Below are positions 2,494-20,544 of a DNA stretch of 21,452 nt, piece by piece; the stretch's first letter is position 1; every line of letters starts with the position of its first letter. The position numbers were made by a program, and so were the translations under genes. The stretch spans positions 1 to 21,452 of IMG/VR virus record IMGVR_UViG_3300006921_000195, one strand, 5' to 3'. The notes beneath the pieces are model-generated. The model was not told the origin of the DNA, searched no databases, and saw nothing but the letters and a program-made list of their open reading frames with translations. Source of the DNA: a virus.

Positions 2494-3918
2494 ATGGCAA
2501 CAAACGCATCATTTGCTGGCCCATTGGCTGGCAGCATTTTAACTCCTTCGGCATCGAAGATGACTACACTAGGGAGTTACTTAGACATCCAAAATGACGG
2601 ATGGGCTAAACAATATCTACCTGAGCTTTACGAAAGTGAAGTACAGAGATACGGGAACAGAACTATTTCTGGATTCCTTTCACAAATTAGTGCAGAAATG
2701 CCTATGTCTTCTGATCAAGTAATTTGGTCTGAGCAAGGTAGACTACACTTATCTTACAACGGTGAGATTAATCCTGTTACAGGTGCAATCGACGCTATTA
2801 CTGGTATTGACTCTGGAGCTTCTGAAACACACGCGATCAGAAAAGGAGCAACATTAGTATGTGAGGTAAACAGTATTGTATTTAAAGCTTTCGTTAAAGT
2901 TGGAGTTGAAACAGCTAACAACGCTTTAACAATTAAGCCTTACGGTGCTGAAAACGTTGATGACCTAGCGGGAATCGCGACTACAGACAATCAAGCAATC
3001 AAATTTTTCGTATACGGTTCTGAATTCAAAAAAGGAACTGCTAGTATGACTGAATCTGTTGAGCCTGGTTTCAAAACTTTCACTAACAAGCCAATGATTA
3101 TCAAAGATCACTTTGAAATCAACGGATCTGACACTGCTCAAATCGGGTGGGTACAAGTAAGTGGTGAAGGCGGAGAGTCTGGATACTTATGGTACTTAAA
3201 ATCTTCTGCTGATACAAAAGCAAGATTTGATGACTATTTAGAAATGATTGCAATTGAATCAGAAAAATCTCATTCAAGTGCAGACGCTGATATTCCTGAA
3301 GGTTCTGAAGGTTTACTAGCTGCTATCGGATCTAGAGGTATCGTAGCGACAAACCAATTTGACTCAGCTACTCCAGCTGCTGATAAGCTTCCTGAGTTTG
3401 ATCTTTTATTAAAAGAATTAGACAAGCAAGGAGCTATCGAAGAAAATATGTTATTCTTAGATAGAGATGCAAATCTTTACATAGATGACTTATTAGCTGG
3501 TTTATCATCTGGAGCACAAGGTGGAACTGCTTACGGAGTATTTAACAACTCTGAAGATATGGCATTAAACCTTGGATTCACAGGATTCAGAAGAGGTTCT
3601 TATGACTTCTACAAAACTGACTGGAAATATCTTAACGATAAATCTACAAGAGGTTCTGTAGGATCATTAAAAGGACTTTTAGTTCCTGCTGGAACATCTT
3701 CAGTATATGACCAAAACTTAGGAAGCAATGTTAGAAGACCTTTCTTACACGTAAGATATAGAGCTTCTCAAGCTGACGATAGAAAATTAAAATCTTGGGT
3801 TACTGGTTCAGTAGGTGGAGCATCTACAATCGGTGATGACAAAATGGAGATTCACTATCTTTCAGAAAGATGTTTAGTAGTACAAGCTGCTAACAACTTC
3901 ATGAGATTTGACTCATAA
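2494..3918 (+). CDS. Major capsid protein
   Basis: A 474-residue shell-forming protein. The N-terminus (FAGPLAGSILTPSASKMTTL) and the following stretch (residues about 45-85, including YGNRTISGFLSQ and EMPMSSDQVIWSEQGRLHLS) match what I recognise as the capsid protein of uncultured marine phages and their relatives. An HK97 fold is expected for the family but cannot be shown by eye. Position after portal and scaffold agrees. Codon choice differs from the neighbours: of 23 Asn codons I count 17 AAC and 6 AAT, whereas nearby tail genes use mostly AAT, a sign of very high expression. There is no obvious cleaved N-terminal delta domain; the scaffold is a separate gene. A hairpin follows 15 bases after the stop and may set the capsid/downstream expression ratio. 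Confidence 0.85.
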   Translation: MATNASFAGPLAGSILTPSASKMTTLGSYLDIQNDGWAKQYLPELYESEVQRYGNRTISGFLSQISAEMPMSSDQVIWSEQGRLHLSYNGEINPVTGAIDAITGIDSGASETHAIRKGATLVCEVNSIVFKAFVKVGVETANNALTIKPYGAENVDDLAGIATTDNQAIKFFVYGSEFKKGTASMTESVEPGFKTFTNKPMIIKDHFEINGSDTAQIGWVQVSGEGGESGYLWYLKSSADTKARFDDYLEMIAIESEKSHSSADADIPEGSEGLLAAIGSRGIVATNQFDSATPAADKLPEFDLLLKELDKQGAIEENMLFLDRDANLYIDDLLAGLSSGAQGGTAYGVFNNSEDMALNLGFTGFRRGSYDFYKTDWKYLNDKSTRGSVGSLKGLLVPAGTSSVYDQNLGSNVRRPFLHVRYRASQADDRKLKSWVTGSVGGASTIGDDKMEIHYLSERCLVVQAANNFMRFDS

Positions 3919-11473: not shown

Positions 11474-11881
11474 ATGAAATTAAATATACGCAGACTCAAT
11501 GAGTCAGACTATGAAACATTAGTTAAATGGTGGGATGCGTGGCCAGAATGGCAAGCACCACCCAAAACCTTTTTGCCAGATAATGGAAAAGGTGGATTTA
11601 TTGTTGAAAAAAACAATATAGGTGTAGTTGCTGGATTTGTTTATATGACTAATTCTAAAGCAGCTTTACTTGAATGGATTATATCTAATCCAGAATATAG
11701 AGAAAGCGACAGAAAAGACGCGATAGAGCTATTAATTAACGCCGTGGAGCAAGTTTTAAAAGATCAGGGAATTAAACATGTATTTTCAATAGGTCGAAAT
11801 AAACATTTAATAGAAACTCATAAAAAATTAAATTGGATTGTTGATAGTAAACCTTCCTACGAAATAATAAAAAATATATAA
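11474..11881 (+). CDS. GNAT-like (N-acetyltransferase fold) protein
   Basis: 135 residues, close to the usual 130-160 of single-domain GNAT enzymes, which move an acetyl group from acetyl-CoA to an amine. Strand/helix order fits: start KLNIRRLNESDYETLVKWWD, central strands GGFIVEKNNIGVVAGFVYMT and ALLEWIISNPEYR, helix DAIELLINAVEQVLKDQGIK, then VFSIGRNKHLIETHKKLNW near the end. The acetyl-CoA pyrophosphate loop, normally R/QxxGxG/A, reads RESDRKDA (about residues 76-83) and lacks the glycines, so catalysis is doubtful; it may have become structural or bind another ligand. It sits among tail and ejection genes with gaps of 0 and 1 base, so it is probably made with the virion proteins. The fold call is fairly sure; substrate and activity are unknown. 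Confidence 0.65.
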   Translation: MKLNIRRLNESDYETLVKWWDAWPEWQAPPKTFLPDNGKGGFIVEKNNIGVVAGFVYMTNSKAALLEWIISNPEYRESDRKDAIELLINAVEQVLKDQGIKHVFSIGRNKHLIETHKKLNWIVDSKPSYEIIKNI

Positions 11882-11882
11882 T

Positions 11883-12512
11883 ATGGCAGTATTTAGTGCA
11901 ATAGCGGCCCGAAAAGCTAGAAAGCAGCAAATCAATGCTCAAGAAAAATTAGACCAACAAATAGCAAATAGACAAAAAATTATAAATCCATATGAAAACG
12001 TATCGGATTTAAGTGGTATGATTTCAAACCCATTTGCTAATTTACAAGTTGCTACGGGCGCAGCTGAAATGCAAGCAGAACAAGCAGATATATCTTTAGC
12101 AAATACTTTAGACACACTAAGAACTACGGGCGCTGGCGCAGCGGGTGCAACCGCCTTAGCTCAAGCTGCTTTAAAAGGTAAACAAGGAATTGCAGCCAAC
12201 ATTCAACAGCAAGAAGCACAAAACGCTAAATTAAGAGCGCAAGGAGAAGCGGGGGCAATGCAAATGAGAATGGCAGAAGGACAAAGAATGCAAGAGGCCG
12301 ATATATTAGGGAAAACTTTTATGTTTCAAGCACAAGAGGGTAGACAAATTGCAGATATAGCTAGAAGTGGTGCAATGGTTCAGCAATATGGACAACAAAG
12401 ATCTGATGCTTTAGGCGCGATGGGAGCTAACACCATGTCATTCCTAGGCGCTGTTGCCACGGCTGGTGCTGGTGGAGGTGCTGGTGGTAGTTTTGGATTT
12501 GGGGGAAATTAA
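11883..12512 (+). CDS. Small ejection / internal virion protein (0-frame product)
   Basis: 209 residues in the 0 frame. Composition is Ala/Gln/Gly-rich: a basic N-terminal helix (AIAARKARKQQINAQEKLDQ), a short conserved-looking turn (SDLSGMISNPFANLQVAT, about 41-58), a Gly/Ala linker (TGAGAAGATALAQAAL) and a long helical Gln/Ala/Met section to about 180, ending in a Gly-rich tail (GGAGGSFGFGGN). This is typical of small internal core proteins of podoviruses (T7 gp14-like by position and size), which leave the virion first and help form the DNA channel. The stop codon at 12510 lies right after a -1 slippery heptamer; a frameshifted form would be 227 residues (see 12503-12565). Role inferred from composition and synteny. 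Confidence 0.65.
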   Translation: MAVFSAIAARKARKQQINAQEKLDQQIANRQKIINPYENVSDLSGMISNPFANLQVATGAAEMQAEQADISLANTLDTLRTTGAGAAGATALAQAALKGKQGIAANIQQQEAQNAKLRAQGEAGAMQMRMAEGQRMQEADILGKTFMFQAQEGRQIADIARSGAMVQQYGQQRSDALGAMGANTMSFLGAVATAGAGGGAGGSFGFGGN

Positions 12513-12565
12513 ACGCCGGTAGCGGCACTAATACTAACAGAAATTTTGGATACCATCCAGGTTAA
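12503..12565 (+). other. Probable -1 frameshift site and 18-codon C-terminal extension
   Basis: In the 0 frame the gene ends GGG GGA AAT TAA. Bases 12503-12509 form G GGA AAT, a canonical X XXY YYZ slippery heptamer differing from phage lambda's G-T site (GGGAAAG) only in the last base. After a -1 slip, reading continues TTA AAC GCC ... to TAA at 12563-12565, adding LNAGSGTNTNRNFGYHPG. The -1 frame has a TAG at 12488-12490, so any shift must fall in 12491-12510, which contains the heptamer. Five bases downstream is a GC-only hairpin GCCG-GTAG-CGGC (12515-12526), a weak stimulator candidate. With the extension the gap to the next gene drops from 67 to 14 bases, in line with the rest of the operon. 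An under-called G in the five-G run would give the same reading without recoding. Confidence 0.6.
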
Positions 12566-12579
12566 AAATATAATAAATT

Positions 12580-14247
12580 ATGGGATTACCAAAAGTAACA
12601 TACGGAAATTACAATTACGGACAATACGCAAATCCAAAAGCAATACAATATAAAGGAGGGCTTGGTGAGGGATTAGCTGGTGGTGCGTTAGCTGTTGCTA
12701 ACACTATTGCGCAAAGCAGAAAAGAACAAAAAGAAGAAGGAAAAAAAGAGGATGAAAAACTAAAAAAAATTGATATAGATAGTATTAATAAAGCTGGCGT
12801 ATTTGGTTCTCAAATGAAAAAAGCCGCTGGAAAATCTTTTGCAATAAAAGAAAATAAAAAATACATTAGGCAATTAAAAAAAGATTTTGGGGAAAATGAA
12901 AAACAATTTGCTTTACAAGGTAGTGCATATGCAGATGAGTATAGCGAAAAGAAAGATTTTTTTGAAAATATATTAAATGAGTTAATTCAATTTAGAAATC
13001 ATGCCACCACTGCTCTTAAAGGATCCGATTTAGACATTAAGGATATTAGAAATAATTCTGCAAACCTTGCCCGTTACCAGCAAAGAAAAGCTATAGAAAA
13101 TGGACTTTTTACTTTTGGTACTAACGAAGGCACTCAAGGCTTGCAAGTTACATTTTCAACAAATGGTGAACCAGCCACTTTATTGGCTAGTGATATTTAT
13201 TCAGATGCAAAGTCTTTAACACCTCAGGCTTCATATTCTAATAGCATGAATAGTACTTTTCAAGAAGAAGTTGAAAACGCCTTTCGAAATTTTAGAGGAG
13301 TCGAAGGAATCACAATAGATGATAAAACACCTATAGGCAATAAAATATATAGCCGTTTAAATTTTAAAGGAGCAGAAAAAGAAATTAAAAATTATCTTAA
13401 AAGTTCCTCGTCTATAACTAAAATAATGAAAGACCCTACTTTTGATAATGAAACTTATTATGAAGACATTTTAGGTTTGGAAAATTACGAGGGCACAGAG
13501 GACGAAGACAAACTTATAGTTGAAGGTTTGGTTAATGATATGTTTAAGCAAGCTGAAGATTTAAATAAGTCCGTTGATTCTTATACTGTTACCAATACAA
13601 ATACAACCCCAACAGGCACTACAACAAAAGTTACAAACTTTTTAGACACCGTGCAGGCAACACCTACCACTAAAACAAAATATAAAACACTTTTAGACAC
13701 ATATGATGGGTTTACAGTGGAAAAAGATGGCAAACAACTAACAGGAAGAAATGTGGGGGCACTTGATATGATAAAACAAGTTAAAAGCGCTGATCAGTTT
13801 AAATACGGCACTAATCTTACTGACGTTTTAACAAATGAAGAATTAATTAAAGAAATTAATTTAGCTTTATCAGACGATAAAGGAACAAGAGAAACTTCTA
13901 TTTTAAGAACAAAAAATGGTAATAGCGTGAAAAACGCAAAAAACGGGAGATTAAGAAAAAAATTAGAAGCATTAAAAAATAAATTAGCGGCAGGTATTGG
14001 AGATGAAAGCAAAATGAAAGCATATCAGCTTACGGTCATAGATGATGGCGACAATAGTTTTTTAGTTCCTGAATTTGATAGTAACGGCAATTTTAAACCT
14101 ATGCTGGAAATAGACAACAATACTTCTTTAGATTCCCATACTAAAGTATTATCCCTGTTGCCTAACGTGGGAACAGGAAATACCGGAGTAAAATTAACTA
14201 CAGAGATATATGATATAGTTGGGCGATATAACTCTTATAACAAATAA
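12580..14247 (+). CDS. Medium-size ejection / internal virion protein
   Basis: 555 residues, not matching a family I can name. It starts with a Tyr/Gly/Asn-rich segment (GNYNYGQYANPKAIQYKGGL), then a short Gly/Ala helix (LGEGLAGGALAVANTIAQSR) followed by a very Lys/Glu-rich stretch (about residues 46-65). The middle (about 80-165) is helical and charged; the later part mixes Thr/Asn-rich linkers (SYTVTNTNTTPTGTTTKVTN, about 342-361) with helices and ends in a beta-like region (VLSLLPNVGTGNTGVKLTTE). There is no transmembrane segment, signal peptide or enzyme motif that I can see. It lies between the small Ala/Gln-rich protein and the 2096-residue protein, the slot of T7 gp15, so an ejection-tunnel role is a reasonable inference. 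The next gene begins 6 bases after its stop. Confidence 0.65.
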   Translation: MGLPKVTYGNYNYGQYANPKAIQYKGGLGEGLAGGALAVANTIAQSRKEQKEEGKKEDEKLKKIDIDSINKAGVFGSQMKKAAGKSFAIKENKKYIRQLKKDFGENEKQFALQGSAYADEYSEKKDFFENILNELIQFRNHATTALKGSDLDIKDIRNNSANLARYQQRKAIENGLFTFGTNEGTQGLQVTFSTNGEPATLLASDIYSDAKSLTPQASYSNSMNSTFQEEVENAFRNFRGVEGITIDDKTPIGNKIYSRLNFKGAEKEIKNYLKSSSSITKIMKDPTFDNETYYEDILGLENYEGTEDEDKLIVEGLVNDMFKQAEDLNKSVDSYTVTNTNTTPTGTTTKVTNFLDTVQATPTTKTKYKTLLDTYDGFTVEKDGKQLTGRNVGALDMIKQVKSADQFKYGTNLTDVLTNEELIKEINLALSDDKGTRETSILRTKNGNSVKNAKNGRLRKKLEALKNKLAAGIGDESKMKAYQLTVIDDGDNSFLVPEFDSNGNFKPMLEIDNNTSLDSHTKVLSLLPNVGTGNTGVKLTTEIYDIVGRYNSYNK

Positions 14248-14253
14248 TATTAT

Positions 14254-17200
14254 ATGGAAGATTTTATTTACGAGCTTAATGGCGAACAAATTGTTGTTAA
14301 AGCTGAAAATAAAGAAAATTTTGAAAGTTTATTTCCTGAAGCGGTTTTAAAACAGCAAGCAGAAAATTTTCAACCGGGTGTCCCGAATGTGGATGCGAGC
14401 GAGACGCCTGTAAAAAGAAGAATACAACAATCAGGCCAATCTTCGGGCTTCGCATCAGAAAATGGTTTTTCGGGATCAGCGGATGATTTTGAAAATACAC
14501 AAGAAAAAGCAACAGCTATAGAAAGACAATTTGGTAAAAATATTGTAACTGATTTTTTTGGAGACTTATATAGGGCTGGGGTACAAGGATCCGCCGCAGG
14601 ATCCTCTGTTGACGAAGCTTTTGATGTTTATAAAAGAGGTGATGATATTTCCGATGAAGATTTACAAAAATTTATCGATGCCAACGAGCGCATGGAAAAT
14701 GCTGGTACCTCTGATGAAATGTTAGAATACCAAAAATTATACGATGAAGCTGGTGGAGGATTGTGGGGATTTTTATCTGCGAACGCACAAACTAGAGGCG
14801 CTGTATTACCACAAATAATAGTTAGCTCTGTTGCAAATATGGCCACATCCGCTTTTGATTCAGAAGAAGTTTTTGGAACAGCTGCTGCAAGCGCGGGAGT
14901 TGGGGCCACTGCTGGTACAGCAATTTTACCAGGAGCAGGAACATTAACTGGCGCTGGTGCTGGGTTTGTTGGAGGTTTAGTTGGTGCAATGGAAACAGGT
15001 TTAACTCTTTCTGAACTATTAAAAGAAGAATTAGATGGTGCTGATTTTAATAAAGAAAATGTAAGAAAAATATTAGAAGATTCAGATGCTTTTGATAGAA
15101 TAAAATCAAGGGCTGTTGGAAGAGGTTTAGCAATTGGTGCTGTTGAGGCTGCTACTTTAGGTTTATCTAGGGGTGTAGCTACTAAATTAGGGAAAACAGC
15201 AATGACTACTACTAAAAAAGGCGCAGTTATTGCGGGCGTTGAAGCGGTTGGTGGCTCTACAGGAGAGGTTGCAGGTAGATTAGCGGCTGATCAAGAAATG
15301 GATACATCTGATATTTTATTTGAAGGTGTTGCAGAATTAAAGGGTGTTATTAATGTGGCCGATATTCTTGCTAAAAAATCTTATAAAGTAAATGGTAAAA
15401 AATCTACCAGAAAAGAAATATTAAAATTTGTTACAAACCCTAATACTAGAGCTGAAGATATTGCGGCTGCAGATATAGACGTACAAGGCGATGTAGAATT
15501 TAAAAATTTTATAGAAAACAAGCAAGCGGATATATACCTAGAGTCAACTATACCTTCTATTGTAACAGATTCTAAAGATAGAGAAGCTCTTTTTGAATTA
15601 GAAAAAGAAAGAAATAAATATAAAGATAATAAAAGTAAAACTGCTCAAAATCTAGTTACCGAAATAAATACCGAAATAAAAGAAATTACAGATAAATATA
15701 AAGGGAGAGGTAGAAGAACAACAGCTCAAGTAAACCAAGCGAAGCAAGATGAAGCAGTACAAAAAGCATCGGAAGAAAGAACTGTAGCAAAAACAATAAG
15801 ATTTGCTGAAACACAAGGCGGTAAAATTGGTTTAAATACAGTAGTTTTAGATGATTCAATTTCTTTTGAAAATGAATTAAAAAAAGATGGTATAAAATTA
15901 TCTAAAGAAGATAAAAAACAAATTGATTTAATTGGAGGCTATATAGAGGGTAATAAAATATATATAAATAAAAGTGCCGCAGCAAAAACAGGACAAATTA
16001 ATGTTGGTGGTCATGAATTGCTTCACGGTATATTAGCTAATGCAAAAATTGATAACCTTAATAGTTTAGTAGAAGATTTTAAAACACAGCTCGATAAAAA
16101 AACATTAGATATATTAGAAAATAATATGGTCGCAAGAGGGTACAATAAAAGTGCAGACTTGTATGCGAAAGAGTATTTAACTAATTTTTCAGATATGATA
16201 GAGTCTGGGGAAATAAAATTTAATGAAAATGTGTTTACAAAAATTGGTAATGCTGTTGTAAATCTTTTAAAATTATTTGGATATGAAAATATAAACTTTA
16301 AAGATGGAAAAGGAGTTTATAATTTTATGAAAGAATATTCTAAAAATATAAAGAGCGGAGAGTTGTCGTCTAGTGTTATTTCTCAGGTAACTGATTCAAA
16401 ATCTGTTGAAGGTAGTTTATCTATAGCTGACGAAAAAGTAGCTAAAGTAAATAAAATATATAATGATTCTTCTGATAAAACTCAAGCAGGGCTAAACATT
16501 GCTATGGAATATTCCGGCATGGCCGAAAAATATATTACAGATTTTAAAAATAACCCTAACTTATCTGAAGAACAAAAAGCGTTAATTGATAGAAACAGAG
16601 AAGATATTAGGGCTCAAATACTTTATGATAAGCTTCCATCTCAAAAGGCTGATTCAAAAAACAGAAATGTACTTGGGTTAGTTCAATCGTTTGAATCTGA
16701 AAAACAAAAATATAATAATGTTGCCGCTTATATAAATACTTTTTTTAAAAGAAGAGCTTTGGAAACAATGAATTACAATTTTAAAGAAGCTGGTATAAAA
16801 AGTATAGAAAACGAAGATGGAACAATAAGAAAAGATGTTGCTAAAAAAACTTCATCAAGTCAAAATATTAAAATTAATAAAAAACAAGAAAAAGGCATAA
16901 ATAGAAAAATAAAACTTGATGATTTAGCTAATGAAATATTTGAAAACTCAAGCGATATTGTAAAAACTATTGAAGAAAGCTTTAATAAAGAAATAAAATT
17001 ACAAGTTAGAAAAGGCACTTTAAAGTCTTTTGATATTGAAAAATTTGTTAAAACAAGTGTAAGACAAGCTATAGTAAATAAATTTGGTAAAATAACTCAA
17101 ACTAAAAACACAGCAGGCGAAAGAGTTGCTGTGGTTCCTAACGAATATAAATCTATATTAGTATCACAATTTGAAAATATAATAGATGCTTTTCCAATAA

Positions 17201-20200
17201 AAGACATAAAGAAAAGATATAGTAAGTTATTTAAAATAAAAGAAATACGTAGAGAAAAAACACGAGAAGGCAATCCAATATATGAAATACCTAAACCTGA
17301 CAAAAAGGAATTTGTTAAATTTTTTACAGAGGGCAGACCAACAACTATTATTGAAAAACAAAAAATACTTTCTGAAATTATAGGTAATTATTTAACATCT
17401 AAAGTTATTAGTGATTTTATTACTACTGAAAATTTAAAAGAATTAAATTCAATAAGTGAATTAGCGCCATCAGTTGCTACAGATGTTGTAGAAAATATTA
17501 TAATTGAAAATGAATTAAATAAACTAGCCGCGCAGGCTGACAGATACGCTGGGGAAAAAATGTTGCAAGATGAAAGGTTATTTTCTAAATCTGCAATAGC
17601 TAGTAAATCGAAAGTTTTAGAGTTATCTAAAATTGAATTAGACAGTGATGAATTTAATAATTATAAAGCGCCGAAAGTAGTTAAAGATTTTGTTAGGACT
17701 ATGCACGCAAAAGGGATTATCAAAGGTAATAGATTTGGCGGGGTTATATATGAGGAATTGCTTTTAGACAAAATTGCAAAAGCAGGTGGTGTAATAAAAA
17801 TACTAAAAAGTGGAGCAGCGTATGATTCTACGGCAGCAGACTTACAGCTTTTAATAAATGATATAAAAGTAAACATAGAAGCAAAATTGAATTCTAAAGC
17901 TTTATTTGGTCAAACAGGTATTAAAGTTAGCTTTAACAATAACCAATCTAAAATTGAATTTTTAAAAAATAATAAGGTTGTAAATAAAAACGAATTATCA
18001 AATTATGAATTGTTCGAATCTATGGTTAATCAATCTTTGCCTTTTATTAAAAACATATTAGACCAAATAAATGAAATAGAAAAAACTAATTTTAATAGTT
18101 TTCCCTTGGGAACGCATATAGCTCAGTCAACTTGGCAAAAAGTTCAAGAGTCTGAAAGCTACAAGTTGCTTACAAAAATAAATAAAAAAATGTCTTCAAA
18201 AGTAGTTGCAGATCATTATAATGCAAAAGACATGTACTACATACAAATTGGAGATAAAGGACTGTATCATTTAGGTATTGATAAATATGGTTTAGGCACA
18301 AAAGAATTTAATGTTGAATTCTTAATGCCTCTTGGTTTTAAACAATCTGGAGCGGCTACAATTATTAAAGGGTTTAAAGGAAAAAGAGTTCGAATTAGTT
18401 TCAAATCTGAAGCTAAAATATTTCAACCTGCTAAGCTTAATCCTTCACCAATAAATTTAGAAAATACTGAAGGAATAAATTTATTAGGCGAAAAAGTTTC
18501 AGAAGGCTCTTTTAGTAGAGCGGCATTAGATAAAGGTATAAATGATATAATTGAAGAAAAAACAGGTATTGGATCTCAAAAAATTTATTCAATTGAAAAA
18601 TCAAAAATAGTTGGTGCAAGAAAAGGTAAATTTAATTTTTATATAGCGCCATCTGCCGAAGACTTTGTAGGTTTATTATATAAATTTTTATCAAAAGGGA
18701 AATTAGGAGATTTACAAATGGCTTGGTTTAAAAAGCATTTGCTTAATCCATACTCTAAAGCCATGCATAAGCTTAATGCCGACCGTATGGTCTTAATGAA
18801 TGATTTTAGAGCATTAAAGAGAAAAATAAACAAAGTTCCTAAAAAATTAAAAAAATTCATACCGAATGAAGGCTTTACTTATGAAACCGCAGTAAGAACG
18901 TATATATGGGATCAACAGGGCATGAGTATTCCGGGTTTATCTAAAGCAGATCAAAAAAGTTTAGTTAAAATAATAAAAAACGATAAAGAATTAAAATCTT
19001 TTGCCGATCAAGTTATACTGATCCATAAAGACAGGGGTTATCCAAACCCTCAACAACACTGGTCAAGCGGAACAATGACAACAGATATGCTGAATGGCTT
19101 AAACACCGTTAGAAGAAAAGAAATACTATCTGAATGGAAAGCTAATGTTGATATAATATTTTCTAATAAAAATTTAAACAAAATGGAAGCTGCTTTTGGT
19201 GGCAAGTTTAAAGAGGCTATGGTAGATATTTTATCAAGAATGGAAACTGGAAGGAATAGACCATATGGAGGGAATAGAATTGCCAACGCTTGGTTAGACT
19301 GGGTTAATAATTCTGTTGGTGTTGTAATGTTTTTGAATATGCGATCTGCTCTTTTACAAACTATATCTACTGCTAACTATATTAATTGGGGTGATAATAA
19401 TGTTTTAAGTGCAGGTAAGGCTTTTGCAAATCAACCTCAATATTGGAAAGATTTTCTTTATATTTGGAATTCTGATTATTTAAAAGAAAGAAGAGGCGGA
19501 TTGAAATTAAACGTTAGTGAAAGTGAAATAGCTGATATGGCTAATCAAGGTGGGGTAAATGGTGTTGTTAGTTTTATACTTAAAAATGGTTTTTTACCTA
19601 CAAAAGTAGCAGATAGTTTTGCTATTGCTTCTGGAGGTGCTTCTATGTACCGAAACAGAGTAAAAACCTATAAAAAACAAGGCTTAAGCACAGAAAAAGC
19701 AGAAGCAAAAGCGTTTAAAGATTTTAGAGAGTTAACAGAAGAAGCCCAGCAGTCAAGTAGACCGGACAGAATATCTTTGCAACAAGCGAGTCCTGCGGGG
19801 AGATTGTTTTTAGCATGGGCAAATACCCCTATGCAATATGGCCGACTAATAAAAAGATCTACTTTAGATTTAATAGCTGGTAGAGGAGATAGAAAAACTA
19901 ATCTATCTAAATTAATTTATTATACAGCGATACAAAATATTATATTTAATGCAATGCAACAGGGAATGTTTGCTATGGCTTTTAATGATGAAAACGATGA
20001 AGAAGAAGATATAAAAAAATATTCAAAAGTCGGAGAGGGCATGTTTGATTCTATATTAAAAGGAGGCGGAATACAGGGTAGTGTTATTATTGCTTTAAAA
20101 AATATAATTGCAGATATTTATAAAAGATCTCAAAAACCTAGACCAAACTATAAAGAAACTTTGTGGAAATTTTTTGACGTAACTCCTCCTTTAGATTCAA

Positions 20201-20544
20201 AAATGACCCGACTTAAATCAGCTTCTTATAGTTTTGAATATGAAGCTGAAGCTATGCAAGAGGAAGGATTTTCTTTAGATAATCCTGCGGTAATGGCAAC
20301 TTCACAGTTAATATCCTTTTTTACAAATATACCGTTAGACAGAGCGGTAAAAAAAGCTAACAATATACAAGCTGCCACGTCAGAAGAAGCTGAAACATGG
20401 CAAAGAATAGCGTTAATTTTAGGGTGGAGCGAATGGGAGTTAGGTATGACAGAGGATGCTAATAAGTTTAAAGTACGAAAAAATATAAGAAAACCTGCAG
20501 CTAGAAAATCTAGTCCGCGTAGAACAATACAAAAAAGAAATTAA
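14254..20544 (+). CDS. Giant ejection protein with zincin-like and PD-(D/E)XK-like regions
   Basis: 2096 residues. In T7-like order this is the gp16 slot: a large internal protein ejected into the host envelope. Visible parts: residues 1-30, small start unit (FIYELNGEQIVVKAENKENF); about 182-256 and 286-345, Gly/Ala-rich hydrophobic segments able to insert in membrane; about 515-700, a metallopeptidase-like domain with HELLH at 587-591 and a possible third ligand E640; about 880-1100, Lys-rich helical region; about 1150-1260, an E1167 ... D1196 ... E1209-x-K1211 pattern fitting a PD-(D/E)XK nuclease; about 1463-1525, a conserved-looking segment (FYIAPSAEDFVGLLYKFLSK); about 1684-1910, the most recognisable part (NNSVGVVMFLNMRSALLQTI, ELTEEAQQSSRPDRIS, WANTPMQYGRL), shared with large virion proteins of marine phages. 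The C-terminus is basic. No lysozyme or transglycosylase motif is evident. Ejection role is inferred; enzymatic domains are candidates. Confidence 0.75.
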   Translation: MEDFIYELNGEQIVVKAENKENFESLFPEAVLKQQAENFQPGVPNVDASETPVKRRIQQSGQSSGFASENGFSGSADDFENTQEKATAIERQFGKNIVTDFFGDLYRAGVQGSAAGSSVDEAFDVYKRGDDISDEDLQKFIDANERMENAGTSDEMLEYQKLYDEAGGGLWGFLSANAQTRGAVLPQIIVSSVANMATSAFDSEEVFGTAAASAGVGATAGTAILPGAGTLTGAGAGFVGGLVGAMETGLTLSELLKEELDGADFNKENVRKILEDSDAFDRIKSRAVGRGLAIGAVEAATLGLSRGVATKLGKTAMTTTKKGAVIAGVEAVGGSTGEVAGRLAADQEMDTSDILFEGVAELKGVINVADILAKKSYKVNGKKSTRKEILKFVTNPNTRAEDIAAADIDVQGDVEFKNFIENKQADIYLESTIPSIVTDSKDREALFELEKERNKYKDNKSKTAQNLVTEINTEIKEITDKYKGRGRRTTAQVNQAKQDEAVQKASEERTVAKTIRFAETQGGKIGLNTVVLDDSISFENELKKDGIKLSKEDKKQIDLIGGYIEGNKIYINKSAAAKTGQINVGGHELLHGILANAKIDNLNSLVEDFKTQLDKKTLDILENNMVARGYNKSADLYAKEYLTNFSDMIESGEIKFNENVFTKIGNAVVNLLKLFGYENINFKDGKGVYNFMKEYSKNIKSGELSSSVISQVTDSKSVEGSLSIADEKVAKVNKIYNDSSDKTQAGLNIAMEYSGMAEKYITDFKNNPNLSEEQKALIDRNREDIRAQILYDKLPSQKADSKNRNVLGLVQSFESEKQKYNNVAAYINTFFKRRALETMNYNFKEAGIKSIENEDGTIRKDVAKKTSSSQNIKINKKQEKGINRKIKLDDLANEIFENSSDIVKTIEESFNKEIKLQVRKGTLKSFDIEKFVKTSVRQAIVNKFGKITQTKNTAGERVAVVPNEYKSILVSQFENIIDAFPIKDIKKRYSKLFKIKEIRREKTREGNPIYEIPKPDKKEFVKFFTEGRPTTIIEKQKILSEIIGNYLTSKVISDFITTENLKELNSISELAPSVATDVVENIIIENELNKLAAQADRYAGEKMLQDERLFSKSAIASKSKVLELSKIELDSDEFNNYKAPKVVKDFVRTMHAKGIIKGNRFGGVIYEELLLDKIAKAGGVIKILKSGAAYDSTAADLQLLINDIKVNIEAKLNSKALFGQTGIKVSFNNNQSKIEFLKNNKVVNKNELSNYELFESMVNQSLPFIKNILDQINEIEKTNFNSFPLGTHIAQSTWQKVQESESYKLLTKINKKMSSKVVADHYNAKDMYYIQIGDKGLYHLGIDKYGLGTKEFNVEFLMPLGFKQSGAATIIKGFKGKRVRISFKSEAKIFQPAKLNPSPINLENTEGINLLGEKVSEGSFSRAALDKGINDIIEEKTGIGSQKIYSIEKSKIVGARKGKFNFYIAPSAEDFVGLLYKFLSKGKLGDLQMAWFKKHLLNPYSKAMHKLNADRMVLMNDFRALKRKINKVPKKLKKFIPNEGFTYETAVRTYIWDQQGMSIPGLSKADQKSLVKIIKNDKELKSFADQVILIHKDRGYPNPQQHWSSGTMTTDMLNGLNTVRRKEILSEWKANVDIIFSNKNLNKMEAAFGGKFKEAMVDILSRMETGRNRPYGGNRIANAWLDWVNNSVGVVMFLNMRSALLQTISTANYINWGDNNVLSAGKAFANQPQYWKDFLYIWNSDYLKERRGGLKLNVSESEIADMANQGGVNGVVSFILKNGFLPTKVADSFAIASGGASMYRNRVKTYKKQGLSTEKAEAKAFKDFRELTEEAQQSSRPDRISLQQASPAGRLFLAWANTPMQYGRLIKRSTLDLIAGRGDRKTNLSKLIYYTAIQNIIFNAMQQGMFAMAFNDENDEEEDIKKYSKVGEGMFDSILKGGGIQGSVIIALKNIIADIYKRSQKPRPNYKETLWKFFDVTPPLDSKMTRLKSASYSFEYEAEAMQEEGFSLDNPAVMATSQLISFFTNIPLDRAVKKANNIQAATSEEAETWQRIALILGWSEWELGMTEDANKFKVRKNIRKPAARKSSPRRTIQKRN

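Follow-up and report, generated by a model that had tools for sequence, protein, structure and literature searches.

A slippery heptamer set against the stop codon, and probable programmed -1 frameshifting, in a small virion protein gene of uncultured Bacteroidota-associated phages

In gene 10 of phages T7 and T3 (10A/10B), a -1 shift near the end of a virion gene gives rise to a minor, C-terminally extended form of the protein; the T3 capsid contains both products, and such extensions are believed to pass from phage to phage, ending up in or out of frame (PMC5009743). The lambda G/GT pair also depends on a -1 shift, at G GGA AAG; its products, which include a separate T domain, serve as assembly chaperones and are not part of the mature virion (PMC5009743). 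In a third system, a +1 shift on a proline codon yields second, extended virion-protein products, and the slip site of the tail-shaft gene is located just 5′ of the stop codon (PMC5009743). The gene described here lies in a DNA stretch of 21,452 nucleotides (IMG/VR virus record IMGVR_UViG_3300006921_000195, positions 1 to 21,452; hereafter the window), and its family resembles gene 10 in the position of the shift and the kind of product, and lambda G/GT in the direction of the shift and the class of heptamer, GGGAAAG being the commonest in the family. Unlike gene 10, which is non-homologous, encodes the major capsid protein and is extended by an Ig-like or other domain, it concerns a small protein in the position of T7 gp14, tails of 15-46 aa and a heptamer directly against the stop. 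Unlike lambda G/GT, it concerns a virion protein, its phages are related to short-tailed ones and its stop is followed by a hairpin; the +1 system differs in its genes and host phylum. The window gene was also considered as a major capsid gene of the gp10A/10B type, and this was rejected because the head gene (phrog_13704 match) is a separate one at 2494-3918. In the open-licence literature searched, no description of frameshifting was found for ejection proteins, for internal virion proteins or for Bacteroidota phages, in keeping with an earlier note on this DNA, which knew of no such recoding for a gp14-like protein.

The 3′ end of the window gene reads ...TTT GGG GGA AAT TAA, with a GGGAAAT heptamer in X XXY YYZ phase abutting the stop codon (Table 1). 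The -1 frame is closed upstream by a TAG at 12488-12490, is open only from 12491 and ends in a TAA at 12563-12565. Its use reduces the distance to the next ATG (12580) from 67 nt, counted from the 0-frame stop, to 14 nt. The GC-only hairpin that follows has a predicted energy of -7.2 kcal/mol (z -2.1). All these elements had been read from the sequence in the earlier note, which placed heptamer and stop correctly to the base, and its upstream TAG, its hairpin five bases on, its 18-residue tail and both gap figures were found as described. The heptamer is the only in-frame GGGAAAN among the 12 main ORFs of the window. In-frame XXXYYYZ sequences of any type account for 1.4% of codons in these ORFs and are mostly A/T-only; since A/T-only heptamers are frequent by chance, evidence from a single gene is suggestive only. 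Taken without homologues, the case for a slippery site in the window gene is weak; strong comparative evidence, resting on homologous sequences, lifts it far beyond chance.

Table 1. Features at the 3′ end of the small virion protein gene and downstream of it (window coordinates)
Feature	Coordinates	Strand	Remarks
0-frame ORF, 209 aa, small virion structural protein (normal product)	11883..12512	+	PHROG 13764-family isolate homologues
Exchangeable 3′ cassette	12479..12564	+	missing in 93% identical L004; alignment breaks exactly there
Slippery heptamer G GGA AAT	12503..12509	+	equivalent heptamer in 28/31 tail-bearing homologues
-1 frame tail LNAGSGTNTNRNFGYHPG (18 codons) and stop TAA	12509..12565	+	start like L301 tail
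0-frame stop TAA	12510..12512	+	TAG instead in 23/31 architecture members
Probable stimulatory hairpin GCCG (12515-12518)-GTAG-CGGC (12523-12526), spacer 5 nt from heptamer	12515..12526	+	folding, family-wide energy minimum
Next gene, 555 aa, position of T7 gp15	12580..14247	+	
Large gene, 2096 aa, position of T7 gp16	14254..20544	+	

The window protein taken alone matches neither phrog_13764 nor any family in Pfam or PHROGs, and tblastn searches with it and with its relative L192 against 50,697 phage records gave no match. Since tblastn gave nothing, cultured isolates were reached via the head protein and neighbouring genes. The window head protein shares 40-45% identity with its counterparts in Flavobacterium elemo phages and Maribacter Panino, and there are matches in Cellulophaga phages too; the window phage is related to Bacteroidota podoviruses, and the likeness of the head protein makes Bacteroidota the most likely host phylum, with which most matches among metagenome-assembled genomes (MAGs) agree. 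Cellulophaga phi38:1 gp099, Flavobacterium elemo gp20 and Maribacter Panino CDS0072 are homologous to the window protein and have the same place in the operon, but possess neither slippery site nor -1 tail. The isolates' proteins align with the family profile (hhalign, probability 97, E 6e-11), match phrog_13764 and are annotated as virion structural, phi18:3 gp120 by MS/MS. On the strength of this homology, the predicted 209-aa product holds as a small virion structural protein. The earlier note had gone further and called it a gp14-like ejection protein; profile homology bears out the virion part of this claim, whereas the gp14-like label rests on size and on gene order only, the small-mid-large arrangement resembling T7 gp14-15-16. 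Neither a sequence match in the PDB nor direct similarity to T7 gp14 was found for the 209-aa protein, and its AlphaFold model is all-helical and of low confidence (pLDDT 58).

Other features of the operon were noted in passing. Immediately 5′ of the frameshift gene, at 11474-11881, a GNAT-like acetyltransferase (weak Pfam match) is encoded within the virion operon, and MW202828 features an annotated acetyltransferase at the equivalent place. The 2096-aa ejection-type protein contains the HExxH-like motif GGHELLHGIL and possibly carries a peptidase domain. In L002 (3001-3870), a C-terminal segment resembling the Peptidase_S74 intramolecular chaperone is present in frame, below the Pfam cut-off (E 0.0045), an unexpected place for such a segment on a small virion protein; similar C-terminal ends occur in L011, L038, L054 and L568.

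Seven protein scans of IMG/VR provided 282 distinct 3′ ends of homologues, in most of which the distance from the stop to the next ATG is -10 to 39 nt. The earlier note had proposed aligning homologues for heptamer and tail; both recur, and are linked, in 31 of the 282, which have the same architecture as the window. This frameshift set comprises members with a gap of 55-150 nt, together with the truncated L166 and with L350, whose next start seems to be misplaced. The next gene could be located in 30 members, and in 29 of these the -1 ORF spans the long gap, ending about 2-24 nt before the next start except in one case of overlap by 8 nt. The +1 ORF, used as control frame, does so in only 4, and was rejected as the frame of the tail. 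An in-frame XXXYYYZ heptamer at the stop or one codon earlier is found in 28 of 31 members compared to 6 of 242 short-gap relatives (p 4e-29). GGGAAAG predominates (14 members), followed by AAAAAAG (4), GGGAAAA (3) and GGGAAAT (2), with GGGAAAC, GGGGGGG, GGGGGGA, AAAGGGC and AAAGGGA seen once each. The three members without heptamer, L005, L203 and L244, end in CAAAG.TAG, GCTTTT.TAG and GATTTT.TAA; judging from these bases, such ends would still allow the last tRNA to slip by -1 with full or near-full pairing, which suggests slippage of a single tRNA while the A site contains the stop codon.

The choice of stop codon also differs, TAG closing the 0 frame in 23 of 31 members of the frameshift set but in only 15 of 242 short-gap relatives (p 5e-17), where TAA dominates (217/242). 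The TAG preference may come in part from the coding need of the -1 frame. The p-values for heptamer and TAG overstate independence, because the members share kinship. On a tree of 273 members, the state of the frameshift architecture changes at least 22 times, and the heptamer tracks the architecture in a mean of 9.6 of 12 independent pairs across supported branches (sign test, median p 0.004). A Bacteroidetes MAG found afterwards in an independent collection (L560) agrees with the set, with GGGAAAT.TAG and an SVSP tail. Gaps of 40 nt or more without a frameshift device were seen in L079, L318 and L464, where something else must be present; the long post-stop gaps of L079 (314 nt) and L318 (182 nt) hold no -1 tail and would reflect either the insertion of a small ORF or wrong placement of the next start.

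The tails evolve as coding sequence. Differences between related tail pairs are distributed over the -1-frame codon positions as 54/37/88 (p 9e-6, pairs not all independent), and motifs such as A..SVSP, FKVTNPLF and KYKPNDTVGFY are common to groups of tails; by this codon-position bias and these shared motifs, coding selection on the -1 frame is borne out across the family. The C-terminus that L477 encodes in the 0 frame matches the -1 tail of L471 (E 2.6e-9), and an in-frame FAVTNPLF of L267 corresponds to the FKVTNPLF tails, which indicates that some relatives make an extended form as a normal product. Low complexity makes homology hard to call close to the C-terminus. The window tail itself, among the shortest of the family, resembles at its start the L301 tail VNTGSGSNT, a partial match only, and as no close relative retains it, selection on that particular tail cannot be measured.

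That other members' -1 tails have in-frame look-alikes in L477 and L267, and that the window tail is protein-like, would also be expected if the true gene ran straight into the tail and the stop were an artefact of a sequencing or assembly error, or the product of a recent indel. The five-G run is, however, repeated in a second, near-identical assembly (L001; 1 mismatch in 6,627 nt), which argues against assembly error, and random indels would yield both frames and no heptamer, whereas about 31 diverse members have the same -1 offset, heptamer against the stop and hairpin. This recurrence largely refutes such an origin already, and we give it next to no credence. The tail might instead be a separate short ORF, translated through reinitiation or coupling at the stop without any frameshift, as could be imagined for L016 and L017, in which the junction reads ATGA so that an ATG opens the -1 ORF. 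Yet in 27 of the 31 tails the first eight codons contain no ATG, and many tails lack any start codon; coupling would not need the heptamers that 28 of 31 members have, and L016 has GGGAAAA as well. Reinitiation is thus a very improbable explanation of the family.

Folding of 30-nt windows places the mean energy minimum of the family exactly at the stop codon (-7.1 kcal/mol, versus about -1 to -2 beyond), with a return to -1.6 kcal/mol within 12 nt. The folding z at the stop is -1.06±0.24 relative to dinucleotide shuffles and about 0 at most other offsets tried, and the perfect-stem score after the stop is 9.2 against 3.8±0.9 for shuffles. Many members have a simple hairpin of 4-7 bp after the stop. 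In a subgroup of 11 members, the hairpin has two stems and a conserved UAA bulge, and its inner stem shows covariation (74% of cells paired compared to 62% when shuffled; covariation in 0/500 shuffles). The alignment of this subgroup is short and was chosen by eye, so that it is supportive rather than proof. An Rfam search gave no match. The counterpart of the window hairpin in L301, ACCG-GAAG-CGGT, differs by one compensatory pair change.

In E. coli, an A-site AAT, as in the window, promotes -1 slippage less well than AAG. Together with the short tail and the near relatives without the device, this A-site codon could mean that a device still working in relatives is in decay at the window site, with slippage there too rare to matter. 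GGGAAAT is nevertheless accompanied by conserved tails in L192 and L560 too, and the compensatory change between the window and L301 hairpins is not what decay would leave. We regard such a relict as unlikely, though not negligible.

Loss and gain of the elements occur at the 3′ end of the gene. The sequence of L004 departs from the window exactly at 12479-12564, L252 and L253 (96% identical) differ at the 3′ end in the same manner, and L139 differs from L136 and L151 in the same kind of way. A close relative lacking both heptamer and tail had been named in the earlier note as a refuting case; L004 is such a relative, but the joint absence of the two supports their linkage and does not amount to refutation. 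Comparison of these 3′ ends indicates that the frameshift device is a 3′-end cassette in which heptamer and tail are gained and lost together. A DNA pattern search with the window's own cassette matched only its twin and the L301 contig. The device is missing in the nearest relatives, L004 and L006 (78% identity), and the cultured relatives examined have no slippery site and no -1 tail, the next gene beginning at once, which makes the device dispensable for the family.

The site anatomy, recurrence, codon-like evolution of the tails, RNA covariation and linkage of the elements observed here are best explained by programmed -1 frameshifting that produces a C-terminally extended minor form of the small virion protein, to which we assign a probability of roughly 0.9. 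The -1 recoding inferred in the earlier note is strongly supported by the recurrent heptamers, the covarying hairpin, the codon-like tails and the relatives with in-frame tails. In this mechanism, a ribosome on G GGA AAT would have the stop codon directly ahead of it, and would pause both at this stop and at the hairpin, which begins 5 nt beyond the heptamer. The pause would allow the two tRNAs, on GGA and AAT, to re-pair one base back, on GGG and AAA, or only the last tRNA, in the P site, to do so. A fraction of ribosomes would continue for 18 codons in the -1 frame, giving a minority form of 227 aa with a C-terminal tail beside the main product of 209 aa. Relatives would use the same device with different heptamers and tails, gained or lost as a 3′-end cassette, and some would encode a matching tail in frame. 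The tail of the minority form may mediate a contact that only some copies should make, in assembly or ejection. Slippage in the host, its efficiency, the presence of both forms in the virion and the contact made by the tail are inferred, in the absence of protein or reporter data.

If correct, these findings extend phage recoding, of which most known examples concern tail chaperones, major capsid proteins and major tail proteins, to a further class of gene, and add a case in Bacteroidota-associated phages, for which none is described in the open literature searched. Extended products in such genomes escape gene callers. The approximately 30 natural variants form a comparative set for the joint action of the heptamer, the stop codon and the hairpin; in some of them, slippage at the stop seems to involve a single tRNA. 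A contact role for the tail of the extended form is inferred from the parallel of T7 and T3, whose coat proteins have extended forms (PMC5009743). Evenly balanced, in our judgement, is the wider proposition that an exchangeable 3′ frameshift cassette of heptamer, TAG or TAA, hairpin and tail is used by the whole protein family and has been gained and lost repeatedly, the share of virion proteins with a given tail being set by recoding in some phages and by in-frame fusion in others. The frameshift architecture is found in uncultured Bacteroidota viruses that form a widespread group and in which one gene would give two versions of a protein; the DNA-ejection apparatus of these phages could use the tail as a variable contact module.
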